From Paenibacillus sp. Soil750 (GTDB lineage Bacteria > Bacillota > Bacilli > Paenibacillales > NBRC-103111), in the NCBI RefSeq assembly GCF_001428045.1, contig NZ_LMSD01000002.1:62812-126811 (forward strand): a stretch of 64,000 nucleotides of DNA, given 5' to 3'. The position numbers and the translations under genes are program-made. The notes beneath the pieces were generated by a model, which was given only the letters and a program-made list of their open reading frames with translations, was not told the DNA's origin and searched no databases. Position 1 is the stretch's first letter, and every line of letters starts with the position of its first letter. Of this stretch, positions 356 to 46,516 are shown piece after piece.

Positions 356-3300
356 TTAAAGTTCTTCAAGAGAAATACGACTCCCGCGGCCAGATGGTTC
401 TGCGGGTTGAACAATTAATTTACGTACGAGTCGTGCACGGAGTTCGGGTACGTGAGAGATGACACCCACAGCTAATCGATCTGTATGCAGCTTCTCTAGC
501 GCTCCTATGACCATGTCTAGCAACTCTTGGTCCAGTGTGCCGAAGCCCTCATCGAGGAAGAAAAACTCTAAAGGATATTCGCCTTTTAGCTGAATCTGAG
601 CGGACAAGGCTAACGCTAATGCTAACGAGGTAAGGAAGGTTTCCCCACCAGAAAGCGTGCCAACTGGTCGCTTCACCCCACCATTCGCATCGTCACGAAT
701 GACGAAGCCACCGCCAGAGTCGACCTCAATCCCATATCGTCGACGCGTTAACTCACCCAGTCGCTCAGATGCCGCGCGGCTTACTTGCATTAACTGCTCT
801 TCGGCAAGGTACTCGACGAAGGCATTCGCCTTGAGCACGGCTTGCAGCTTGCCAAGCCGTTCTAGCAGCGTCGCCTGCTCAACGCGCTGCGCTTCGAGCT
901 CGCACCAGCGCAAGTGCCGCGCAGCGAGCTCGCTGGCGCCCTGCGCCGCCTTAGCGCGCGCTTCCAGCGCGGCCTCGGCGCCGGCCTTCGCGTCGCTCAG
1001 CTGCGCCTGCGACTGCGCCCATTCGGCCGCGCTCAGCACGCGGCCCTGCAGCTTCGCTGCCAGCTGCGCCAGCTGGGCGCGCAGCGCCTGCTCGCGCTCG
1101 CGGTGCTCCGCCGCGAGCTGCGTCCACTGGCGGCGCTGCTCAGGCGCCAGCGCCGCGGCCTCTGCGGCTTCGCGCGATGCGAAGCCGCCTTTCTCGAGCG
1201 CGCTGGCCAGCGCGCGCTCGGTCTGCGCCAGCTGCCGCGCCGCGGCGGCAGCTGCTTCGGTGGCGGCGCTGTAGCGCTGCGCCGCCAGGGACTGCTCGCG
1301 CTGCGCAGCAGCGTGCGCGAGCTTGGTCATCTGCGCGAGCTGCCGCAGCTGTGCAAGCGCGGAGGTCGCCTCCGCGATGAGCTGCGGCACCGCCGCGCCA
1401 GGCGCGCGCAGAGCGAGCTGCCGCGACTTGTCGGCGGCGAGCAGCGCGAGCCCTTGCAGCCGCTCATGGAGCTGCAAAGCCGTACGCTCGCGCTCCTGCG
1501 CAGCAAGTTGCAGCTTGTCGATGTTGACGAGCAGCTCCTCGAGGAAAGGGATGCTTTTCTCAATTCGGCCACGCAGCTCATCCGCCATCCGCTCATGATC
1601 CAGGATCTGTTGGAGTTGTTCTTCAACAATTTCCCAGCTCAGCTCTGCGAATCGCTCTTGCCACTGGAGAACTTGATCTTGGATAGCAGCCGTCAGGCCA
1701 CTTAATCTAGCTTCAGCTTCTACAACCAAGCTAGCAGCCGCTTGCCCTTGCGCTCCTAGGACTAAATCTTGTTGTGTCAATTGTACGTGTTCTTTGAGCA
1801 AATGTTCATATGCCTTCCCAGATGCTTCCACTTGAGAAGCAAGGTTTTGAGAAGCTGAATTCACACTCTCCCATGCCTTGTTCCAATCTTCCAAGCTCAT
1901 GACCATAAGCGAACTAAGTGGACTTACTTGATCACCGATTTCTTGACCTGCTGCAGCTTCTTGAAGCGCAAGGTCCCGGCCAGCAACTTCTTCTATTTGT
2001 TTACTTATCGCTTCATCAGGGAAACTCAAAGCTGCAGCCTGCTTATGTTGATCCGCCATACTTCGAATGAGTTGCAACCCTTGATACTGACTTTCTTTCG
2101 CTTGCTGCAAGTACGGTTCGATTTGATGCAGTAAGTTTTCAGAAACGCTGTTCTTATCCGAATCCTCTGCGTTTACGCTACTCTTATGCAGCGCTGGATG
2201 CTCTAGAGCACCACACACGGGGCACGATTCTCCCATTTCCAATTCTGAAGCCAACAAAGCAGCCAAGGCATGACGTTCTTGATGCTTCAATTGCTTTCTT
2301 TGCTCTTCCAACCACCCTTGCAGACCAGTCGAGAAAGCTGTAAATAAGCCTTGTTGTTTCTGTAATTGCCATTCAATCGAAGCACTAGCTTCAAACCAAC
2401 TTAAAAACCGAGCATACAACACTCTCTGTTTGTCCAAAATCAATGCTCTCGATTGCTCCACAGTGTTACATGCATTCACTTTGTCAACTTTGTTTCGTTG
2501 TGCTTCTAGCTCTTGAGCCTGAAGAAGAAGTATAGCCTTTTTCTCCTGCACAGCGTATTGCAATTGTTGCCTCTTCGCAGCATCCGTCTCAACCAGTTTT
2601 AATTGAGCTTTCAGTTCTGTTTGTTTGGCAACCGCTTTTTGCTTCGTTTCATGCGCTTTCGACATATCCGCACGCAAACTTAATAAGGCTGATTTCACTT
2701 CAGCTTCTTGTGTTTGTGCTGCTTGAATTTGCGACTGTACTTGTTCGAGCTCCTGTCCTATCACAAGCGCTTGTTCCAATTGATCCAAACGCAGCAATAA
2801 TGGCCCTTCTTGTGCGACTAGATCCTGCCCCGCTTTATCAAAAGCAAGCGATGCTCGCTGAAAATCAGTTTCCGAGCTGGCCAGGGATAACGTTGCCGTT
2901 TCAAGAAGTGCTTTGCTTGACAACACATCTTTAGCAGCCAGTTTATGTTGATCCAAGTAGGGTATAACCCGCTCCGCTTGTTCAGCCAGCTTTAGGATCT
3001 GTTCTTTTTCAGCAATAAGTTCTTCTTGTTCATGATGCTTTCGCTGCTCTTGTTCAATACCTTCCGATTCCTTTATCCATTGATAGACTTGTTTGTTTTC
3101 TTCGTAGGCCTTCTCCTGTTGCTCCAAATGAAGTCGACTTCGAACCGCCTCTTGTTCCGTTTCAAGAAGTCTTCTATTCGCTTCCTCCAAAGCTGCTGTG
3201 GTCGCATCGCCCAAGCCCTGCTGTTCAGCAGCAAGCTGTTTAACGGCACTGTCCGTTTCTTTTACTTTAGAGCTGACTTTTGAGCTTAATTGATCCCCAT

Positions 3301-3838
3301 AGGTTTCAAGATGGAAAAGACGTTGCAGCATTTGCCTGCGATCTTTGCCTGTCAAAGTCAAAAACTCTGCGAACTTTCCTTGCGGGAGCACGACTGCTCT
3401 TGTAAAATCCTGCATAGACAGACCGAGTATATTCTGGACCTGTTGATTGACTTCGCCTGCCTTATCCGCCAGCACAATCGTTTCGTTATCGCGTATATGT
3501 AAGAGACGTGAAATCGTTCCGTTAATGGACATTTCAGCTCCGCGCTTGAATTGCCGCTCTACTCGGTATCGCGCTGTGCTCGATGCGTTCGTCAGTTCAA
3601 ATGTAAAAGAAACGAACAGCGTTTGCTCCGCATGATTCATGATCGCTTGTGTGCCACCGCTTGCCCTTTCTACTTTGCCATAGAGCGATAGCGTTATCGC
3701 ATCTAAGATCGATGATTTCCCGCTGCCTGTTGGTCCAAAAATACCAAACACACCCGCATCTACGAGCTGGCTAAAATCGATCGTTTGCAGCTCTCGATAG
3801 CTTTGCAAACCTGACATCTGTAACTGAATTGGACGCAA
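356..3838 (-). CDS. sbcC: Exonuclease subunit SbcC (SMC-like ATPase)
   Basis: SbcC is the ATPase of the SbcCD nuclease, which cuts hairpins and processes protein-blocked DNA ends. The 1160-residue product has the family layout. A Walker A motif GPTGSGKSSI is near residue 35. Long coiled coils flank a zinc hook CPVCGALEHP near the middle. The ABC signature LSGGETFLTSLALALALS and Walker B FFFLDEGFGTLD are near the C-terminus. The start follows a good ribosome site and sbcD lies just upstream on the same strand, 101 bases away. The part encoded by about 850-1540 is strikingly G+C rich and Ala/Gln/Arg rich, unlike the rest of the gene. It lies in the second coiled-coil arm, where composition is free to drift. 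Confidence 0.97.
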   Translation of the reverse strand: MRPIQLQMSGLQSYRELQTIDFSQLVDAGVFGIFGPTGSGKSSILDAITLSLYGKVERASGGTQAIMNHAEQTLFVSFTFELTNASSTARYRVERQFKRGAEMSINGTISRLLHIRDNETIVLADKAGEVNQQVQNILGLSMQDFTRAVVLPQGKFAEFLTLTGKDRRQMLQRLFHLETYGDQLSSKVSSKVKETDSAVKQLAAEQQGLGDATTAALEEANRRLLETEQEAVRSRLHLEQQEKAYEENKQVYQWIKESEGIEQEQRKHHEQEELIAEKEQILKLAEQAERVIPYLDQHKLAAKDVLSSKALLETATLSLASSETDFQRASLAFDKAGQDLVAQEGPLLLRLDQLEQALVIGQELEQVQSQIQAAQTQEAEVKSALLSLRADMSKAHETKQKAVAKQTELKAQLKLVETDAAKRQQLQYAVQEKKAILLLQAQELEAQRNKVDKVNACNTVEQSRALILDKQRVLYARFLSWFEASASIEWQLQKQQGLFTAFSTGLQGWLEEQRKQLKHQERHALAALLASELEMGESCPVCGALEHPALHKSSVNAEDSDKNSVSENLLHQIEPYLQQAKESQYQGLQLIRSMADQHKQAAALSFPDEAISKQIEEVAGRDLALQEAAAGQEIGDQVSPLSSLMVMSLEDWNKAWESVNSASQNLASQVEASGKAYEHLLKEHVQLTQQDLVLGAQGQAAASLVVEAEARLSGLTAAIQDQVLQWQERFAELSWEIVEEQLQQILDHERMADELRGRIEKSIPFLEELLVNIDKLQLAAQERERTALQLHERLQGLALLAADKSRQLALRAPGAAVPQLIAEATSALAQLRQLAQMTKLAHAAAQREQSLAAQRYSAATEAAAAAARQLAQTERALASALEKGGFASREAAEAAALAPEQRRQWTQLAAEHREREQALRAQLAQLAAKLQGRVLSAAEWAQSQAQLSDAKAGAEAALEARAKAAQGASELAARHLRWCELEAQRVEQATLLERLGKLQAVLKANAFVEYLAEEQLMQVSRAASERLGELTRRRYGIEVDSGGGFVIRDDANGGVKRPVGTLSGGETFLTSLALALALSAQIQLKGEYPLEFFFLDEGFGTLDQELLDMVIGALEKLHTDRLAVGVISHVPELRARLVRKLIVQPAEPSGRGSRISLEEL

Positions 3839-26985: not shown

Positions 26986-28104
26986 CTAGTCGCCTAAGAA
27001 GGCTCTTTTCATACGTTCAAAAATAGACTGGCTTTGCTCATGCGTATGCTCGCCGCTTTGCTTGCCGAACTGACGCAGTAAATCCTTCTGATCTTCTGAC
27101 AAGTTCGTCGGTGTCATCACGATGACTTTCACGTGTTGATCCCCTTGACCGAATCCACGAAGATGCGGAACGCCTTTGCCTTTCAGACGGAAGTACGTAT
27201 CGGTTTGCGTACCTGCTGGAATCTTGAGCTTCACTTTCTCAGTTAGCGTAGGGATTTCAATTTCATCACCAAGCGCCGCCTGCATGAAAGTCAATGGCAC
27301 TTCACAGTACACATCATTACCTTCACGTTGGAAGAACTCATGGTTTTTCACACGAATCACAACATAAAGATCACCTGACGGGCCTCCACGTGTTCCGCCT
27401 TCACCTTCACCAGAAACGCGAAGTTGAGCACCATCATCTACCCCAGCTGGAATCTTGATGTGAATGGTGCGAGTCTTTTTCACTTTACCAGCGCCATGAC
27501 ATGTTCCGCATTTTTCTTTGATGATTTTACCGGAACCATTACATGACGTACATACGCGGCGATTCACAATACGGCCAAATGCTGTATTCTGAACCACTTC
27601 TTGTTGTCCGCTACCATGACAGCCGCCACATGTTTCTGGCTTTGTTCCAGCTTTGGCACCGGAACCATGACATGTATCACAATTTTCAGTACGCGGAATG
27701 TTGATATCCATTTCTTTGCCGAAAATGGCTTCTTTGAATTCCACTGTCATCGTGTATTGCAAATCATTACCGCGTTGTGGGGCATTCGGATTACGACGAT
27801 TGCCACCGCCACCGCCGCCAAAGAACATATCAAAAATATCCCCGAAGCCGCCGCTGAAGTCTTGACCGCCGCCAAATCCTTGATTCGGATCTACGTGACC
27901 GAACTGATCATATTGCGCTTTCTTCTGATCATCACTCAGAACGTCATAGGCGTCTTTCGCTTCTTTGAACTTATCTTCTGCATCTGCCGCTTTATTCACG
28001 TCAGGGTGATATTGACGTGCCATTTTACGGTAAGCCTTCTTGATCTCTTCCTGTGAAGCATTCTTCCCGAGACCTAACACCTCGTAATAATCACGTTTAC
28101 TCAC
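26986..28104 (-). CDS. dnaJ: Chaperone protein DnaJ
   Basis: DnaJ is the Hsp40 partner that delivers clients to DnaK and stimulates its ATPase. The 372-residue protein has the J domain ([17 protein letters not shown], with the YHPDVNK HPD motif), a Gly-rich region ([16 protein letters not shown]), four CXXCXGXG zinc motifs ([32 protein letters not shown]) and the C-terminal substrate domains. I chose GTG at 28104 (protein begins [11 protein letters not shown]) because GGAG lies 8 bases upstream. An ATG 21 bases earlier overlaps that ribosome site. It is the last gene of the CIRCE operon. Confidence 0.97.
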
Positions 28105-28139
28105 TTGTTCCACTCCCATGTTCAAGACTACAAACGGAA

Positions 28140-28244: not shown

Positions 28245-30083
28245 TTATTTTTTAGGTTCGTCAACCACTTCGTAGTCCGCGTCTACAACATTTTCTCTGC
28301 CTTTAGGTGCTTCGCCTGCGCCAGCATCAGGACCTGGGCCTTGATCTTGGGAAGCTTGCTCATATAATTTAACAGAAAGTTGTTGAATGACTTCAGTCAA
28401 TTCTTCTGTTGCTTTTTTGATCGTCTCAAGATCGTTGCCAGCAAGAGCAGCTGTAACTTTCTCTTTCGCTGCATTCGCTTTGTCGATCTCGCCTTGGTCT
28501 ACTTTGTCGCCAAGATCTTTGATCGTTTTGTCAACGGAGTACACCAATTGATCAGCTTCGTTACGAGCTTCTACAAGCTCTTTACGTGCGCGATCTTCTT
28601 CAGCATGCGCTTCCGCATCTTTCACCATTTGTTCAACTTCTGCATCGCTCAAGCCGCTGGAAGAAGTGATCGTGATTTTTTGGCTTTTGCCTGTTCCTTT
28701 ATCCAAAGCAGACACGTTAACGATACCGTTCGCATCGATATCGAAGCTTACTTCGATTTGCGGAACGCCGCGTGGAGCTGGAGGAATGTCACCTAGCATG
28801 AAGCGGCCAAGTGTTTTGTTACCGCTAGCCATGGAGCGCTCACCTTGAAGAACGTGAATTTCTACGCTAGTTTGGTTATCTGCATAAGTGGAGTACACTT
28901 GTGATTTCGTAGTAGGAATCGTTGTGTTGCGGTCGATCATTTTCGTGAATACGCCGCCTGCTGTTTCGATACCAAGGGAAAGTGGTGTTACGTCAAGAAG
29001 AACAACGTCTTTCACCTCACCAGTCAAGACACCAGCTTGAACAGCTGCGCCAAGGGCAACAACTTCATCCGGGTTAACACCTTTGTGTGGCTCTTTACCG
29101 ATTAATTTCTTGATTGCTTCTACAACCGCAGGAATACGAGTGGATCCACCAACTAGAACAACTTTATCGATTTGGCTTGTGGACAAACCAGAATCTTGAA
29201 GTGCTTGACGAGTTGGTCCTAATGTTCTTTCAACTAGACCAGCGGAAAGCTCTTCGAACTTCGCACGCGTCAAGTTTAACTCCAAATGCTGAGGTACGCC
29301 GTCTGCTACCGTGATGAACGGAAGGGAAACCGTCGTAGTCAAAACACCAGAAAGTTCTTTTTTCGCTTTTTCAGCAGCATCTTTCAAACGTTGAACTGCC
29401 GCTTTATCTTTGGAAAGGTCAATGCCTTGTTCTTTTTTGAATTCAGCAACGAGGTAATCCATAACAACTTGGTCAAAGTCATCTCCGCCCAATTTGTTGT
29501 CACCGCTTGTTGCTTTAACTTCGAAGAAACCATCGCCTAGCTCAAGGATGGATACGTCGAATGTACCGCCACCAAGGTCATAAACAAGAATTGTTTGATC
29601 TTCTGTTTTTTCCAAACCGTATGCAAGTGCTGCAGCAGTTGGCTCATTGACGATACGAAGTACTTCAAGACCAGCAATTTTACCAGCATCTTTAGTTGCT
29701 TGACGTTGGCTATCGTTGAAGTAAGCAGGAACCGTGATTACCGCTTGCGTAACCGTTTGACCAAGGTAAGCTTCTGCATCCGCTTTTAGCTTTTGCAAGA
29801 TGATTGCAGAGATCTCTTGTGGCGTGTAGTCTTTGCCATCAATGTGCTCTTTATGGTTCGTACCAATGTGACGCTTGATGGAACTGATTGTTTTGTCTGG
29901 GTTTGTGATCGCTTGACGTTTAGCAGTTTCACCAACTACACGCTCGCCATCTTTCTTGAAACCTACAACGGATGGCGTTGTGCGGTTACCTTCTGGATTT
30001 GGAATAACAACAGCTTCTCCGCCTTCCATAACGGCAACGCAAGAATTTGTAGTACCTAAGTCAATACCAATTACTTTACTCAT
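28245..30083 (-). CDS. dnaK: Chaperone protein DnaK (Hsp70)
   Basis: DnaK binds exposed hydrophobic peptides in an ATP-dependent cycle with DnaJ and GrpE. The 612-residue protein begins [18 protein letters not shown]. It has the actin-fold motifs [34 protein letters not shown] and [13 protein letters not shown], then the substrate domain and the lid, ending in an acidic [11 protein letters not shown] tail. The ATG at 30083 follows AAGGAGG at 9 bases. The open frame continues 21 codons upstream into the grpE-dnaK gap without conservation. Length is normal for Bacillales. Confidence 0.98.
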
Positions 30084-30146: not shown

Positions 30147-30710
30147 CTATACGCTAACTTTAACCATTGCAGGTCGGATGACCTTATCTTTTAGGATATA
30201 GCCTTTTTGCAATTCTTCTACAACAATACCTTCTTCATGCTCCTCGGATTCCACTTGCATCACGGCTTGATGGAATTCAGGGTTGAACGGTTGACCAACA
30301 GCTTCGATAGGCTTAAGCCCTTCAGCAGTTAATAGTTGATCGATACCGCGGTATGTCATATCCAAGCCCTTCACCAATGCGTCGAAATCCTTCGTCTCTT
30401 TGCTTGAAGACAGCGCGCGATCAAAGTTATCCACAATCGGTAATAGCTGCTCAATCAATTTTAGCGAAGCGTATTTCGCGAAATCTTCCTTCTCCGCTCT
30501 TGCACGGCGACGGAAGTTGTCGAAGTCCGCTTGAACGCGTAATAAACGCTGATAGTTTTCTTCGGCTTGCACACGCGCCTGTTCCAATTCGCTAGATACT
30601 GTAGCTTCCTCGGAAACTTCTACACCAGCTTCATCAGTCGTTGCTTCGTTATCGGCTGCGTATGTAGTGTCAATGTCTTGTTCGACTGTTTTGTTATCTC
30701 CAGTACTCAA
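30147..30710 (-). CDS. grpE: Nucleotide exchange factor GrpE
   Basis: GrpE releases ADP from DnaK. The 187-residue protein has an acidic unstructured N-terminus, a long helix (EENYQRLLRVQADFDNFRRR) and the C-terminal beta domain (VGQPFNPEFHQAVMQVESEE and KGYILKDKVIRPAMVKVS). The start is TTG at 30710, 10 bases after AGGAGG, and no better ATG is available. It lies between the archaeal-like chaperonin and dnaK; in Bacillus it would directly follow hrcA. Confidence 0.97.
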   Translation of the reverse strand: MSTGDNKTVEQDIDTTYAADNEATTDEAGVEVSEEATVSSELEQARVQAEENYQRLLRVQADFDNFRRRARAEKEDFAKYASLKLIEQLLPIVDNFDRALSSSKETKDFDALVKGLDMTYRGIDQLLTAEGLKPIEAVGQPFNPEFHQAVMQVESEEHEEGIVVEELQKGYILKDKVIRPAMVKVSV

Positions 30711-30767: not shown

Positions 30768-32291
30768 TTAGTTCTCTTCAAAAGGCTGCTTCATCTTAAT
30801 CACTGTATGGATACGCAGCACCGCGGCAGCAACTTCCCCAGCCGCTTGCAGAGCGTGAATTTTCACATCTGTCGGATCCATGATCCCCGCTTCCACAAAA
30901 TCCGTGATCAACCCCGTATCACAATCGATCCCTAGGCTGTCCGTATCCTGCGCAAGCTGGGCCGCTTTCAACTCTTCAACCTTCTCGAGCGGATTGTAGC
31001 CTGCATTCACGACGATTTGCGACAGTGGCTTGCGCAGTGCTCCCGCGACAGCGGCCACACCAAAGCCCTCCATGCCCTTCATCGTCTCGCGCACACGCTC
31101 CAGATCATGTGCGACGGCCATCTCCGCTGCGCCGCCGCCAGGCAAGTACCCGCCGCGCACGGCGGCTTGGACGGCTGACGCAGCGTCCTTCGCGATGCGC
31201 GAGCGCTCATGCGCCGCTTCGCGCGTCGCGGCACCAACGATCACGGTCACGTGCTGTTCGCCGTGACCGCGCGCCACGCGTACGCGCTCTAACCGCTCGT
31301 CATACGCGGCATAGCCCGCGTGACCGAGAGCAGCGCTCAGCTCCGGCGCGCTCTTGCGCAGCGCCGTGCGCCGCACCGGCCTAGCGCCGGTGTGCTCGCT
31401 CAGCAGCTGCAAGTCCCGGCGGGACAGCCGCTGCAGCACGAGGATGCCATGGTCGGAGCAGAACTGCTCCGCCTCAGGGTCAACCCCGCGGTCTGATGCA
31501 ATCAGCCCGACGCCAAGCTCCAGCAGCGAGCCGAGGCTGCTGCGGAAGAGCTCCCGGAGCTGCATGTAGCGCTGGAAGCCTGCCTCGGTTACCAGCGATT
31601 CTTCGCTGACCGCCTCAGGCTCCAGGGCATCATGCAGCACGAGAATGCGCGCATCTCGCCGCTCATGCTCGAGATGTAGGTTCATCGGCTTCTGGTTCAG
31701 CAGAATGCCGGTCCAAACCTCGCTACTCGCTTCTTCATGTGCGATCACGCTGTCCGCGAAGCGATAGCCTTCTTCGCGCAGCTTCGCCTCACCGACCGCT
31801 TCCGCTGCTTGAATGATAAGCTTAGCGATATCTGTTTGCTCGCGCCCCGCCGTATAAGCAATCCGCTGCAGCGCGCGATCTCCAAGGCCTACAATCTGAC
31901 GACTACGGCCCTGTAAGCTCGCTACGGCCAATTCAATGCCCTGTAGCATGCCAGTGACAACCTTGGCAACAGGGACGCCGCGAGTAACTTGTGCGACGCC
32001 TTCTTGCACCATGGCTCCGGCAAGCACTGTGGCTGTCGTTGTGCCATCGCCAATTTGGCGTTGTTGACTGCGAGCGACTTGAATCATTAGCCTAGCAGCA
32101 GGATGAGTAACATCCATCTTTTCCAATATGGTTACACCATCGTTAGTAATGATGACATCACCTTGGCCGCCAACTAACATGGTATCTAGTCCTTTAGGAC
32201 CTAGGGTTCCTTCGACAGCAGAACAAATCGCTCTGACTGCCGCAGCATTATTCACTAACGTAGAGTACCGTTCTTCACTTTCACCGTGCAT
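30768..32291 (-). CDS. Archaeal-like (group II/III) chaperonin of the TCP-1/cpn60 superfamily
   Basis: This is a thermosome-like chaperonin, not GroEL. The 507-residue product shows group II signatures. TLGPKGLDTMLV is at residues 29-40, ITNDGVTILEKMDVTHPAA at 48-66 and IGDGTTTATV, with the catalytic Asp, at 80-89. Later come GGYLPGGGAAEMAV, NAGYNPLEKVEEL and a tail that matches the thermosome GIIDP...K..A...A end (GIMDPTDVKIHALQAAGEVA). The apical domain includes the stretch that forms the built-in lid in thermosomes (about residues 230-260), so no GroES partner would be needed. The ATG at 32291 follows AGGAG at 8 bases and lies 14 bases after the hrcA stop. Bases 31000-31800 are very G+C rich. 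Related 'group III' chaperonins in Firmicutes such as Carboxydothermus are also encoded in the dnaK operon. Confidence 0.9.
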   Translation of the reverse strand: MHGESEERYSTLVNNAAAVRAICSAVEGTLGPKGLDTMLVGGQGDVIITNDGVTILEKMDVTHPAARLMIQVARSQQRQIGDGTTTATVLAGAMVQEGVAQVTRGVPVAKVVTGMLQGIELAVASLQGRSRQIVGLGDRALQRIAYTAGREQTDIAKLIIQAAEAVGEAKLREEGYRFADSVIAHEEASSEVWTGILLNQKPMNLHLEHERRDARILVLHDALEPEAVSEESLVTEAGFQRYMQLRELFRSSLGSLLELGVGLIASDRGVDPEAEQFCSDHGILVLQRLSRRDLQLLSEHTGARPVRRTALRKSAPELSAALGHAGYAAYDERLERVRVARGHGEQHVTVIVGAATREAAHERSRIAKDAASAVQAAVRGGYLPGGGAAEMAVAHDLERVRETMKGMEGFGVAAVAGALRKPLSQIVVNAGYNPLEKVEELKAAQLAQDTDSLGIDCDTGLITDFVEAGIMDPTDVKIHALQAAGEVAAAVLRIHTVIKMKQPFEEN

Positions 32292-32305: not shown

Positions 32306-33334
32306 TCATTTGCCATACCAACGTCCTAGGACCAATTCCATATGCTTCGATAGATGTTCCATTAAACCAATGACTCTACCGTATTCCATGCGAGTAGGTC
32401 CCAAAATACCAATCGTTCCAAGCGGCGTACCGCCAATGGAATAAGAAGCTGTAATTAAACTGCAATTCGATATGGCTTCAATACTATTCTCAGCACCAAT
32501 TTTAATCTCAATGCCTTCATTTGACGGAGTAAATAACTTGATTAGGGTTGGTGCTTCTTCCAGCAGATCAAAAATGCTCTTTACTTTCTCCACGTCCTTA
32601 AACTCAGGCTGTGTAAGCATATTTGTCATCCCACTAAGGAATACACGGTCCTTCTCATCACTTTGAAGCACGCTTTCCACCAAACCAAGAAGCTCTTGAT
32701 AGCCGGTGACATATTTGCTTAACTCGTTAGAAATTTCATTGTAGAGCTTCGATTTAAACTGAACCAATGGCACATTCTTAAGCCTAGTGTTCAGAATATT
32801 AACGACCTTCTCGATTTCCGACATCGGAATCCCTTCGGGTATCGTTACAGTCTTATTTTCAACATGACCCGTATTCATCACTAGGATCGCAACAGCCGTT
32901 GTATCCGAGATCGGAATAATTTGGATATGCTTCAATGTCGTGCTAAATACTTCAGGACCGAGCACAATAGACGTGTAATTCGTAAGACTGGAGAGCATGC
33001 CAGCAACGTGCTGAATAACACCTTCCATCTCTTGAATACGTTCTGCGAAAGCCCCCTTCATGGAGTCCAAATCATGACTTTGCAAGGAGCCGTGCTTCAA
33101 CAAATGATCGACATAATAGCGATAACCTTTGTGTGAAGGAATACGACCTGCGGACGTATGAGGCTGCTCAAGATAGCCCATTTCTTCGAGATCAGACATT
33201 TCATTACGTATGGTCGCTGGACTAAAACCAACATTCCCACGCTTCGAAATACTTCGCGAACCAATTGGCTCCGCTGAACGAACGTAATCATCAATGATTG
33301 CACTTAAAATCATGCGTTGGCGCTCTGTCAACAT
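32306..33334 (-). CDS. hrcA: Heat-inducible transcription repressor HrcA
   Basis: HrcA binds CIRCE and represses class I heat-shock genes; its activity depends on a chaperonin in known systems. The 342-residue protein has the N-terminal winged helix (LTERQRMILSAIIDDYVRSA, RSISKRGNVGFSPATIRNEM), then GYLEQPHTSAGRIPSHKGYR, and the central GAF-like domain ending in IGILGPTRMEYGRVI. It is the first gene of the operon and autoregulated through the CIRCE element 42 bases upstream. Confidence 0.97.
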   Translation of the reverse strand: MLTERQRMILSAIIDDYVRSAEPIGSRSISKRGNVGFSPATIRNEMSDLEEMGYLEQPHTSAGRIPSHKGYRYYVDHLLKHGSLQSHDLDSMKGAFAERIQEMEGVIQHVAGMLSSLTNYTSIVLGPEVFSTTLKHIQIIPISDTTAVAILVMNTGHVENKTVTIPEGIPMSEIEKVVNILNTRLKNVPLVQFKSKLYNEISNELSKYVTGYQELLGLVESVLQSDEKDRVFLSGMTNMLTQPEFKDVEKVKSIFDLLEEAPTLIKLFTPSNEGIEIKIGAENSIEAISNCSLITASYSIGGTPLGTIGILGPTRMEYGRVIGLMEHLSKHMELVLGRWYGK

Positions 33335-33375: not shown

Positions 33376-33402
33376 TTAGCACTCGTATTTAGTGAGTGCT
33401 AA
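33376..33402 (-). promoter_or_regulatory. CIRCE operator of the hrcA-chaperonin-grpE-dnaK-dnaJ operon
   Basis: TTAGCACTC (33376-33384), 9 bases, then GAGTGCTAA (33394-33402): a perfect match to the CIRCE inverted repeat. It lies in the hrcA leader, between the predicted start of transcription and the hrcA ribosome site. Confidence 0.97.
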
Positions 33403-33410
33403 ATCCTAAT

Positions 33411-33438
33411 ACAAAAATAACAGACCCTAAGGTCTGTT
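33411..33438 (-). terminator. Terminator of the GNAT gene, nested in the hrcA promoter
   Basis: AACAGACC (33419-33426) pairs with GGTCTGTT (33431-33438) around a 4-base loop and is followed on the minus strand by ATTTTTGT. It begins only about 7 bases after the GNAT stop codon. Its T run coincides with the hrcA -10 region. Confidence 0.8.
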
Positions 33439-33443
33439 GTCAA
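33414..33443 (-). promoter_or_regulatory. Predicted sigma-A promoter of the hrcA operon
   Basis: On the minus strand TTGACA (33443-33438) is followed after 18 bases by TATTTT (33419-33414). The predicted start falls just before CIRCE. The spacer is almost entirely the stem-loop of the upstream gene's terminator. Confidence 0.6.
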
Positions 33444-43905: not shown

Positions 43906-46476
43906 CTATTTCCATAATTTCATTCGTGTGAAAATCCCTGATTTCCGCACCTCCATCTGTACTTCCCCCATTCGATCAGTCCTATATATGGCTACGTTCT
44001 CATTGACCAAGCGATCTGTAATTTCTGGAGAAGGATGGCCGTAGGTATTCATGGCACCCACTGAGATTACTGCCACAGCTGGTTTCCAGTAGGTCAACCA
44101 CTCTGAGGTCGTTGAGGTTTTACTACCATGGTGGGCAACTTTAAGAACATCGATTTTGTTATTGCTGCTGCTGATTTTGGCGGCAGAGTTGGAGGAATCT
44201 ACTAAAGCAGGATGATCACGTAAATAATCCAGCACTGCCGCTTCGGATTCTTTCTCCATATCCCCAGTGAACAGCCAACGTGTTCCTTCCATTTCAAGCA
44301 AGAAGACAACAGATCTCGCATTCTGCTCTTTGACAACTTCAATCATTGTTGGATTCGTTTCAAGTGGATATATCACCTGCAATTTCGTAACGGGGTCGAT
44401 GTCAATCCAATTTTCTACTTGGGCGGGTAATAAGGGGACTTCTTTTTGAACCAATGTGGAAAAAAAGGTCGTCATAGAGCTGCTTTCCTTAAATGTTCCG
44501 TTAAATAGAAATTGCTTCACTGGTATTTGTTCAATAACAGCCTGTAAACCGCCGCTATGATCAGCATCCTCATGTGTAAGCACGAGAAGATCTAATCTTT
44601 GTATCCCTCGTTTCTTGAGGAGAGGAACAAGCAGTTTACGCCCTACTTCATACGGATCCTTGCGGATTTTCCAATCATCACCTGGCTTACGGAATGTGAG
44701 TGTCCCTCCTCCATCGATTAATAACTGACGACCGTAAGGCGTTCGAATTAGAATTGCATCACCTTGTCCAACATCGATAAATTGCACAAGCCCTGTTCGT
44801 TGAAAACGATTCGGTGAATACCCCATCCATAACAGGATGAGAAAGCCGCTTATTGCAAGAAGTAGACTGAGTTTAATTGGCATTCCCTGTGTGCTTTTCC
44901 TCGTACTAACCTCCAATATAATAGGTATCTCATCTTTCGAATGTAGGTAACTTCGCTGCCAGAGTAGATAGATCATAACTAAGAATCCATAGTAAAAACA
45001 GATCCAAGGCATACTAGGAGATGGCCAAATCATAGTGAGATGAGGTATCTGCTGAAGTTGATCGGTAATCCAGAAAATAGCTTGATTCAGCCAAGTGATG
45101 AGTTGACCAATTCTTTGACCTAAAGGAATGTAAACTAGACCAAGCGCTAACGCAACCAAACCTGCTGGAAACACAATCATGCTGATTACGGGGACTAACA
45201 CGGCATTCGCTATCCAAGATAACAAGGAAAACTGATTGAAGTAGTAAATGGAGACCGGAAAAGAGACGGATTGGGAAACGAGTGTGATGGCGAGGGTGTT
45301 TCGGAGTGTAGGAGAAGTTAAGTAAGGTGTGAGCAATACCGTTACTCGTTGCACACCGAGGATGAGTCCAAGTGTGACTAGGAAGGAAAGCTGGAAGCTT
45401 ACATCCAGCAAAAAGTAAGGGTCCCATACCAGCATAGCCCACGCTGCTACGGCTAGTATGTGCAAAACCTCTTTCATACCTCCACGCCGAGCTGCGTACA
45501 GGGCGATCATCGACATTAGCCCTGCCCTGACTATGGACGGCGATGCCCCAGTCACGAGGACATAGAAAGGGAGCAAGCCCATGCAGATGAGCAAATAAGT
45601 TTCTTTGGTGACTTTAAAACGGCGCAAGATCCAAATGCATACACCTAGAAACACGGCAATATTCAAGCCTGAGATTGCTAAAATATGTGTCAGTCCTAGC
45701 TGTGAAAATTGCTGGAAGCGGTCTGGGTCCAGATCGTCCGTGAGGCCGATCAACATGCTTTTCATGAACCCCGCCTGCGACGCGGGAAAGATCAGATCCA
45801 TGCGCCTGCTGAGCGCTGCGCGCAGCTCGTCGTTCCAGCGCAGCAGCTGGACGACGCTGAGGTGCGCTGCCGCAGGCTGCACCTGCGCCTGATCCACCCC
45901 TTTGGCTGAAAGCAGCCAATGAGTGTGGTGAAGGCGCAAATATCGGCGGTAGTCGAAGCCGCCGAAGTTGCGGGCCGGGGACGGGCTGCGCAGCGTCCCC
46001 GTTAGCGTGATGGCGTCGCCGCGGCGCCAGCCCGACGCGATCGCCTGCTGCGCCTGCTCCATCAGGCGCAGCGAGACCTGCACGCTTTCCCCGCCGAGCG
46101 GGAAAGCGGTGTTGTCTTGGAAGCGGACGGACTCCGCTTCCAGGGTGAAGCTGGCCCTGTCACCTTCAAGGGTGACAGGGCTGGCAAACCGGCCGAGCAG
46201 CATGGCCTCGCTGCCGTCAGGGCTGATCTGCTGCTGCGCCAGCGGCAGCGCAGTGATGTTGCGCTGGTCGGTCCCTTGATAATAGCCGTAGGCTATTACG
46301 ACCAGCAGCAAAGCGCCCAGCTGCTGCCGGCCAGGCAGGCGCAGCGCGTAGAGGATGACGAGCGCGGCTACCAGCAGCGCGCTTGTCATCCATGTCAGCC
46401 ACGGGAGCTCAGTATAGATCGCGAGTACATAGCCACTTATCCACAGACAGCATCCTTGAACAACTGATCTTTTCAT
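43906..46476 (-). CDS. comEC: DNA internalization competence protein ComEC/Rec2
   Basis: ComEC is the membrane channel that passes single-stranded DNA into the cell during transformation. The 856-residue protein has an N-terminal helix pair and OB-like DUF4131 region, the Competence domain (FMKSMLIGLTDDLDP, HILAISGLNIAVFLGV), and a C-terminal metallo-beta-lactamase domain (FIDVGQGDAILIRTPYG, VLTHEDADHSGGLQAV, VAHHGSKTSTTSEWL). I chose the ATG at 46476 after AAGGAG at 9 bases. Bases 45740-46400, encoding the N-terminal third, are very G+C rich. It is separated from comEB by a MarR-MFS cassette, so it must be transcribed on its own. Confidence 0.96.
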   Translation of the reverse strand: MKRSVVQGCCLWISGYVLAIYTELPWLTWMTSALLVAALVILYALRLPGRQQLGALLLVVIAYGYYQGTDQRNITALPLAQQQISPDGSEAMLLGRFASPVTLEGDRASFTLEAESVRFQDNTAFPLGGESVQVSLRLMEQAQQAIASGWRRGDAITLTGTLRSPSPARNFGGFDYRRYLRLHHTHWLLSAKGVDQAQVQPAAAHLSVVQLLRWNDELRAALSRRMDLIFPASQAGFMKSMLIGLTDDLDPDRFQQFSQLGLTHILAISGLNIAVFLGVCIWILRRFKVTKETYLLICMGLLPFYVLVTGASPSIVRAGLMSMIALYAARRGGMKEVLHILAVAAWAMLVWDPYFLLDVSFQLSFLVTLGLILGVQRVTVLLTPYLTSPTLRNTLAITLVSQSVSFPVSIYYFNQFSLLSWIANAVLVPVISMIVFPAGLVALALGLVYIPLGQRIGQLITWLNQAIFWITDQLQQIPHLTMIWPSPSMPWICFYYGFLVMIYLLWQRSYLHSKDEIPIILEVSTRKSTQGMPIKLSLLLAISGFLILLWMGYSPNRFQRTGLVQFIDVGQGDAILIRTPYGRQLLIDGGGTLTFRKPGDDWKIRKDPYEVGRKLLVPLLKKRGIQRLDLLVLTHEDADHSGGLQAVIEQIPVKQFLFNGTFKESSSMTTFFSTLVQKEVPLLPAQVENWIDIDPVTKLQVIYPLETNPTMIEVVKEQNARSVVFLLEMEGTRWLFTGDMEKESEAAVLDYLRDHPALVDSSNSAAKISSSNNKIDVLKVAHHGSKTSTTSEWLTYWKPAVAVISVGAMNTYGHPSPEITDRLVNENVAIYRTDRMGEVQMEVRKSGIFTRMKLWK

Positions 46477-46516
46477 GGGAGATCTCTCCTTCATTTTCAC
46501 TTTCTTACGATCCCAA

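Follow-up and report, generated by a model that had tools for sequence, protein, structure and literature searches.

The window analysed here (64,000 nucleotides of Paenibacillus sp. Soil750) carries, inside its dnaK heat-shock operon, a gene that we call cpn3 and whose predicted product is supported by sequence comparisons as a group III (archaeal-like) chaperonin. We consider it very probable that this protein forms a lidded folding chamber, co-induced with DnaK and working as an accessory beside the GroEL/GroES system of the same organism. Earlier publications already cover the class, its location in the dnaK operon and its control by HrcA, and a preliminary description of this DNA was right to present class and location as known. 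For the near-universal presence of cpn3 in the Paenibacillus lineage, we found no report in the open-licence literature among the matches listed, and the same literature yielded no paper joining group III or archaeal-like chaperonins with Paenibacillus and none joining thermosome, Paenibacillus and dnaK.

The open reading frame lies exactly where it had been placed between hrcA and grpE, with an ATG at 32291 (AGGAG 8 nt upstream), a stop at 30768 and 14 bases between the hrcA stop codon and this ATG. The operon runs in the order hrcA, cpn3, grpE, dnaK, dnaJ, and cpn3 thus occupies the dnaK-operon position that is one mark of group III. The features of the locus are as follows:

26986..28125, minus strand: dnaJ (profile match; coordinates approximate at the start codon)
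28245..30083, minus strand: dnaK (ATG at 30083; profile searches)
30147..30710, minus strand: grpE (profile searches)
30768..32291, minus strand: cpn3, predicted group III chaperonin of 507 aa (profile and structure searches, alignment, tree)
31185..31187, minus strand: predicted catalytic Asp369, Ch-CPN Asp373 (alignment)
31515..31637, minus strand: predicted built-in lid, residues 219-259, Ch-CPN 223-263 (alignment; Ch-CPN limits from excerpts of PMC5635000)
31842..31844, minus strand: predicted Arg150, the group III gamma-phosphate arginine, Ch-CPN Arg155 (alignment)
32139..32141, minus strand: predicted catalytic Asp51, Ch-CPN Asp56 (alignment)
32306..33334, minus strand: hrcA, heat-shock repressor (PF01628, 235 bits; TIGR00331, 360 bits, above cut-off)
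33376..33402, no strand assigned: perfect CIRCE operator, TTAGCACTC-N9-GAGTGCTAA (0 mismatches)
33414..33443, minus strand: promoter-like TTGACA-18-TATTTT, directly upstream of CIRCE (10/12 consensus match)

All motifs quoted in the preliminary description are present in the cpn3 translation, and the profile search that it proposed returned a match to Cpn60_TCP1 of 338.7 bits over practically the whole profile (positions 3-489 of 490). GroEL models, TIGR02348 among them, stay below their cut-offs (at most 171 bits against 352 and more), and the top NCBIfam model, the thermosome model TIGR02339, reaches 261.6 bits, far under its cut-off of 671.1; no group III model is among the NCBIfam models listed. 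The best match among solved structures is a resurrected ancestor (PDB 9rwq, 588 bits) that is named ACII in the structure table but ACIII, i.e., group III, in the data section of its paper. The best natural solved relative is Ch-CPN with 423 bits and 43% identity (213 of 498 positions), whereas no natural archaeal thermosome exceeds 193 bits. In a tree of 46 chaperonins (35 of group III, 3 of group II and 8 of group I), the protein falls inside the group III clade together with Ch-CPN and outside groups I and II, and the placement inside GroEL that had been named as the outcome speaking against the assignment is not what we see. Support is 100/100 for group I, 100/99 for group II and 88/90 for group III; the split between groups II and III, with group II represented by three rows, thus has moderate support only, and the tree-building software flagged groups I and II as long branches that join each other.

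Ch-CPN of Carboxydothermus hydrogenoformans (PDB 5x9u, 5x9v) is likewise a group III chaperonin in the same operon position, and one of our loci (L140, genome G619) presumably is C. hydrogenoformans itself, since its chaperonin, encoded between hrcA and grpE, lies at zero tree distance from Ch-CPN. With residue roles taken from Ch-CPN as given in excerpts of PMC5635000, both proteins share the pair of catalytic aspartates, the equivalent of Arg155, the P-loop (Asp82, Thr84 and Thr86 in the cpn3 protein), the short lid, the ball-and-socket pivot and the lack of a nucleotide-sensing loop. The pivot is Leu435 (Ch-CPN Leu439) in a socket of Arg104, Val106, Met407 and Phe410 (Ch-CPN 109, 111, 411 and 414) that holds two conservative changes, Lys109 to Arg and Tyr414 to Phe; further changes from Ch-CPN are Asp46 to Gly, Ser212 to Glu and Trp208 to Asn. 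The lid segment is retained as had been claimed, with Leu233, Phe239, Tyr242 and Phe249 at its tip, and a loss of the catalytic Asp and lid, the second outcome named against the assignment, is contradicted by the alignment, which retains both aspartates and the lid.

Group III chaperonins resemble group II thermosomes in their built-in lid, overall fold and nucleotide site. The archaeal group II thermosomes of our comparison (PDB 3j1e, 6xhi and 1a6d) form a separate clade, and all three differ from the cpn3 protein by a loop region that is six residues longer and a lid region that is four residues longer. The region of the nucleotide-sensing loop is 16 aa in 35/35 group III rows, including the window, compared with 22 aa in 3/3 group II rows, and the lid region is 45 aa in the cpn3 protein compared with 49 aa in the same three thermosomes. 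In a wider set of 130 rows, the loop region is 16 aa in all and the lid region 45 aa in 128. These two lengths are structural marks of group III, and score, tree, residues, loop, lid and pivot all agree with the archaeal-type, group III chaperonin that had been proposed. GroEL/GroES of the same genome belongs to the same superfamily yet to a separate clade. Its lid is a separate, detachable one.

For residue conservation, we compared 132 of the 282 gene-bearing genomes listed, which after removal of three split or short copies (L068, L069 and L073) left 129 full-length proteins, window included. The equivalents of Asp373 and Arg155 are found in 129/129 and that of Asp56 in 125/129. The four others (L102, L103, L104 and L120) carry Ala in place of this first catalytic Asp, with TNAG for TNDG, and the lid region of the L102 protein is additionally 13 residues shorter. 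An apparent loss of the catalytic Asp in the window (MLVG for MLVD) was considered and rejected; following the numbering in the excerpted text of PMC5635000, the catalytic Asp56 is the aspartate of TNDG, which is kept. The MLVD position corresponds to Ch-CPN Asp46 and is Gly41 in the window (32169-32171); 62 full-length copies from the order have Gly (61) or Ser (1) here, and the copies fetched from other orders and classes mostly have Asp (17/27 and 38/40).

The perfect CIRCE that the preliminary description had seen ahead of the operon is there with 0 mismatches, against a chance expectation of 0.02 sites even at up to 3 mismatches, and by sequence this operator and the presence of hrcA place the operon in an HrcA/CIRCE regulon. 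The TTGACA-18-TATTTT element is among the two best of 12 promoter-like sites in the region, though a consensus match alone is no evidence because shuffled sequence yields 12.8 such sites. The same description had pointed out that the window has no GroES/GroEL pair; the ORF list for 25-42 kb indeed contains none, but the search elsewhere in the genome that it had proposed located groES (C1:155383-155652) and groEL (C1:155740-157305, 855 bits, above cut-off) on another contig. A CIRCE core with one mismatch (C1:155305-155327) precedes the groES match by about 56 bases. Across the whole genome, CIRCE-core sites with at most one mismatch number 13 compared with 6 for a reversed control pattern, and therefore only those adjoining chaperone genes are meaningful. 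A perfect core at C12:1125826 (locus L006, about 1501-1565) lies some 43 bases upstream of an HSP90-family ORF (287.5 bits), which suggests that Hsp90 (HtpG) also belongs to the HrcA regulon. The predicted regulon would thus comprise the cpn3 operon, groESL and probably htpG, and control by HrcA is probably common to GroEL/GroES and cpn3. Sections of a review (PMC5904260) place types I and III chaperonins both under HrcA, with type III in the dnaK operon. Among cpn3 carriers, CIRCE precedes hrcA in 33 of the 34 scorable loci of family and order (35 in all, genus left out), in 27/27 of the class and in 40/40 of the phylum, and it is equally kept in 31 of the 32 scorable non-carriers of family and order (33 in all); as a control, 3 of 500 random 310-base pieces of the window score at most 3 mismatches.

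cpn3 is present in 30/30 genomes of the genus and in 91/104 of the family, three of these 91 copies being split or stop-bearing; this count takes in only matches that score well beyond GroEL, since raw tallies at E 0.001 (30/30 and 104/104) include GroEL matches. At a limit of E 1e-60, the gene was found in 83/198 sampled genomes of the order, 61/398 of the class and 127/398 of the phylum (samples that overlap and all contain the window genome), and within the order sample it is common in the family of the window (77/89) and rare outside (6/109). Carriage by 127 of 398 phylum genomes contrasts with the printed picture of rarity or extreme habitats, as sections of PMC5220055 report group III chaperonins from only a few bacteria and excerpts of PMC5635000 mostly from species of extreme environments. 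Among named genomes, the scan retained the best 80 of 474 relatives, which biases it towards near kin; 79 of these 80 carry the name Paenibacillus, and P. plantarum and P. qinlingensis (99%) are closest to the window. To our knowledge, these nearest named relatives of the window are not thermophiles. The same best 80 include P. psychroresistens, P. antarcticus and P. glacialis, whose names suggest cold habitats, and judging by such species names the class may not be linked to heat.

Carriers of cpn3 almost invariably possess GroE as well, with groES present in 125/127 carriers of the phylum sample. In the other two, both incomplete drafts, cpn3 is present and neither groES nor an above-cut-off groEL was detected; a genome living without GroEL was considered for them, but a missing contig is likelier (completeness is 63% for G824 and 94% for G881, a draft in 210 contigs; groEL is present in G837, a genome of the same family as G881).

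The place of the gene is fixed across all 132 gene-bearing genomes compared, with hrcA directly before cpn3 on the same strand at a gap of at most 328 bases, and grpE comes after it on that strand in 131, separated by up to 287 bases in 128 and by 437-806 bases in three with split copies. The exception (L119, genome G844) has hrcA, cpn3 and dnaJ, with grpE and dnaK undetected between. Of non-carriers, we fetched the hrcA loci of all 13 from the family and of 20 of the 103 others in the order sample; one contig ends after hrcA (L144), and in the 32 informative loci hrcA and grpE are neighbours and no chaperonin-like ORF of at least 60 aa is found. On an operon tree of HrcA, GrpE and DnaK with 80 rows (44 present, 4 broken or suspect, 32 absent; a quick search with SH-aLRT only), the presence and absence of cpn3 requires 12 changes, or 13 if broken copies are scored as absent; at least 6 are required by branches with good support. 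Pairwise distances over 126 genomes correlate at r 0.879 for HrcA and chaperonin, 0.894 for HrcA and DnaK and 0.787 for DnaK and chaperonin, and of 123 splits these pairs have 50, 28 and 31 in common, respectively, with DnaK cut to a piece of 260 aa. Tree, correlations and common splits together favour joint vertical inheritance of the linked genes, with cpn3 lost repeatedly, over its repeated insertion at the same site. The pattern is most simply read as repeated losses that left hrcA, grpE and CIRCE intact, and the scattered absences suggest that many lineages can do without the cpn3 protein, which leaves a major folding role uncertain. Close relatives with and without cpn3 offer a natural comparison for the role of a second chaperonin class, and the same comparison bears on whether cpn3 touches HrcA control.

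By analogy with Ch-CPN, for which excerpts of PMC5635000 describe a hexadecamer closing on ATP binding without GroES, the cpn3 protein would form two stacked eight-subunit rings, and ATP binding would shut each chamber by a lid of the subunits' own apical helices; as the lid would be built from these helices, GroES would be unneeded. Operon order and operator are consistent with cpn3 being made on one heat-shock transcript with HrcA, GrpE, DnaK and DnaJ that HrcA at CIRCE would keep off until stress, heat induction being expected from general knowledge of such operons. Because cpn3 coexists with groES and is missing from relatives in which hrcA and CIRCE are retained, we see its product as an accessory folding chamber next to the GroEL/GroES system, probably serving clients passed on by DnaK. 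A link between group III chaperonins and DnaK was proposed in the discussion of PMC5635000 and also in parts of PMC5220055.

The hand-over of clients could go together with a share in regulation. Two chaperonin classes would then answer to one repressor, with the group III protein receiving DnaK clients and partly tuning HrcA, and lineages that lost it returning these clients to GroEL; we regard this as rather unlikely, but if the protein does receive DnaK clients in this way, its repeated natural losses would amount to replicate knock-outs.

Lower still is the probability that the chaperonin beside hrcA is the feedback sensor that keeps HrcA active, replacing or joining GroEL/GroES. Its invariable position directly downstream of hrcA (132/132 carriers, 14 bases in the window) and the greater number of splits that HrcA has in common with the chaperonin than with the DnaK piece would fit such a partnership, but HrcA distances track DnaK slightly better than the chaperonin. 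Moreover, cpn3 is absent from 32 of the 80 operon-tree rows in a scattered pattern with hrcA adjoining grpE, carriers nearly always have GroES, and a passage of PMC8957991 assigns HrcA feedback in Bacillus subtilis to GroEL-GroES. Since non-carriers keep hrcA, grpE and CIRCE, HrcA evidently does not need cpn3, which speaks against the idea, raised in the preliminary description, that the cpn3 protein rather than GroEL supplies the chaperonin feedback on HrcA. In the accessory-chamber reading that we prefer, chaperonin feedback on HrcA would stay with GroEL/GroES.

Some copies of cpn3 look damaged and could, together with the scattered absences, be taken to mark a decaying relic without chaperonin function: those in G032, G078 and G189 are split, and those in G050 and G934 have one in-frame TAA each, yet long frames were obtained from them. 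However, G078 is a poor assembly in which hrcA is split too, and the gene is present in every genome of the genus and full length in the window with all catalytic residues. Using only pairs with dS 0.05-0.8, the median dN/dS of cpn3 within the genus is 0.045 (129 of 435 pairs), next to 0.023 for HrcA (48 pairs), 0.094 for GrpE (215 pairs) and 0.020 for DnaK (282 pairs), which indicates that cpn3 is under purifying selection within the genus. Purifying selection and an intact active site thus support a working chaperonin, and decay to a relic is very improbable.

Least credible of all is an archaeal group II thermosome gene, recently acquired and inserted into the operon, as could be read from the thermosome models heading the NCBIfam matches and from a cpn3 GC3 (0.63) far above that of hrcA, grpE, dnaK and dnaJ (0.36-0.43), because the protein sits in the group III clade with a short loop and short lid, holds the same place across the phylum and has distances that track HrcA (r 0.88), and because GC3 rises and falls again within cpn3 itself, as it similarly does in other genes of this genome.

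This GC3 hump (window 31071-31838) climbs from 0.36 at the 5' end of cpn3 to 0.90 around codons 276-325 and falls to 0.56 at the 3' end. cpn3 exceeds both hrcA and grpE in GC3 in 30/30 genomes of the genus and 32/35 of family and order, and the excess is not clear elsewhere (19/27 and 25/40). Within the genus, synonymous divergence drops from 0.74 to 0.30 at the hump, and amino-acid divergence does not drop. An overlapping gene under the GC-rich part was considered and rejected, since alternative frames mostly do not exceed the length reached in synonymous shuffles (the median of the longest frames lies below the shuffled mean in 4/5; 133 compared with 118, sd 41, in the fifth). Similar humps occur in genes for an SbcC-like ATPase (window 359-3838), a ComEC-like competence protein (window 43909-46500) and an FGGY kinase (L273:17429-18961), and cpn3 ranks 4th by GC3 range among 275 ORF-called genes in 464 kb of the genome.
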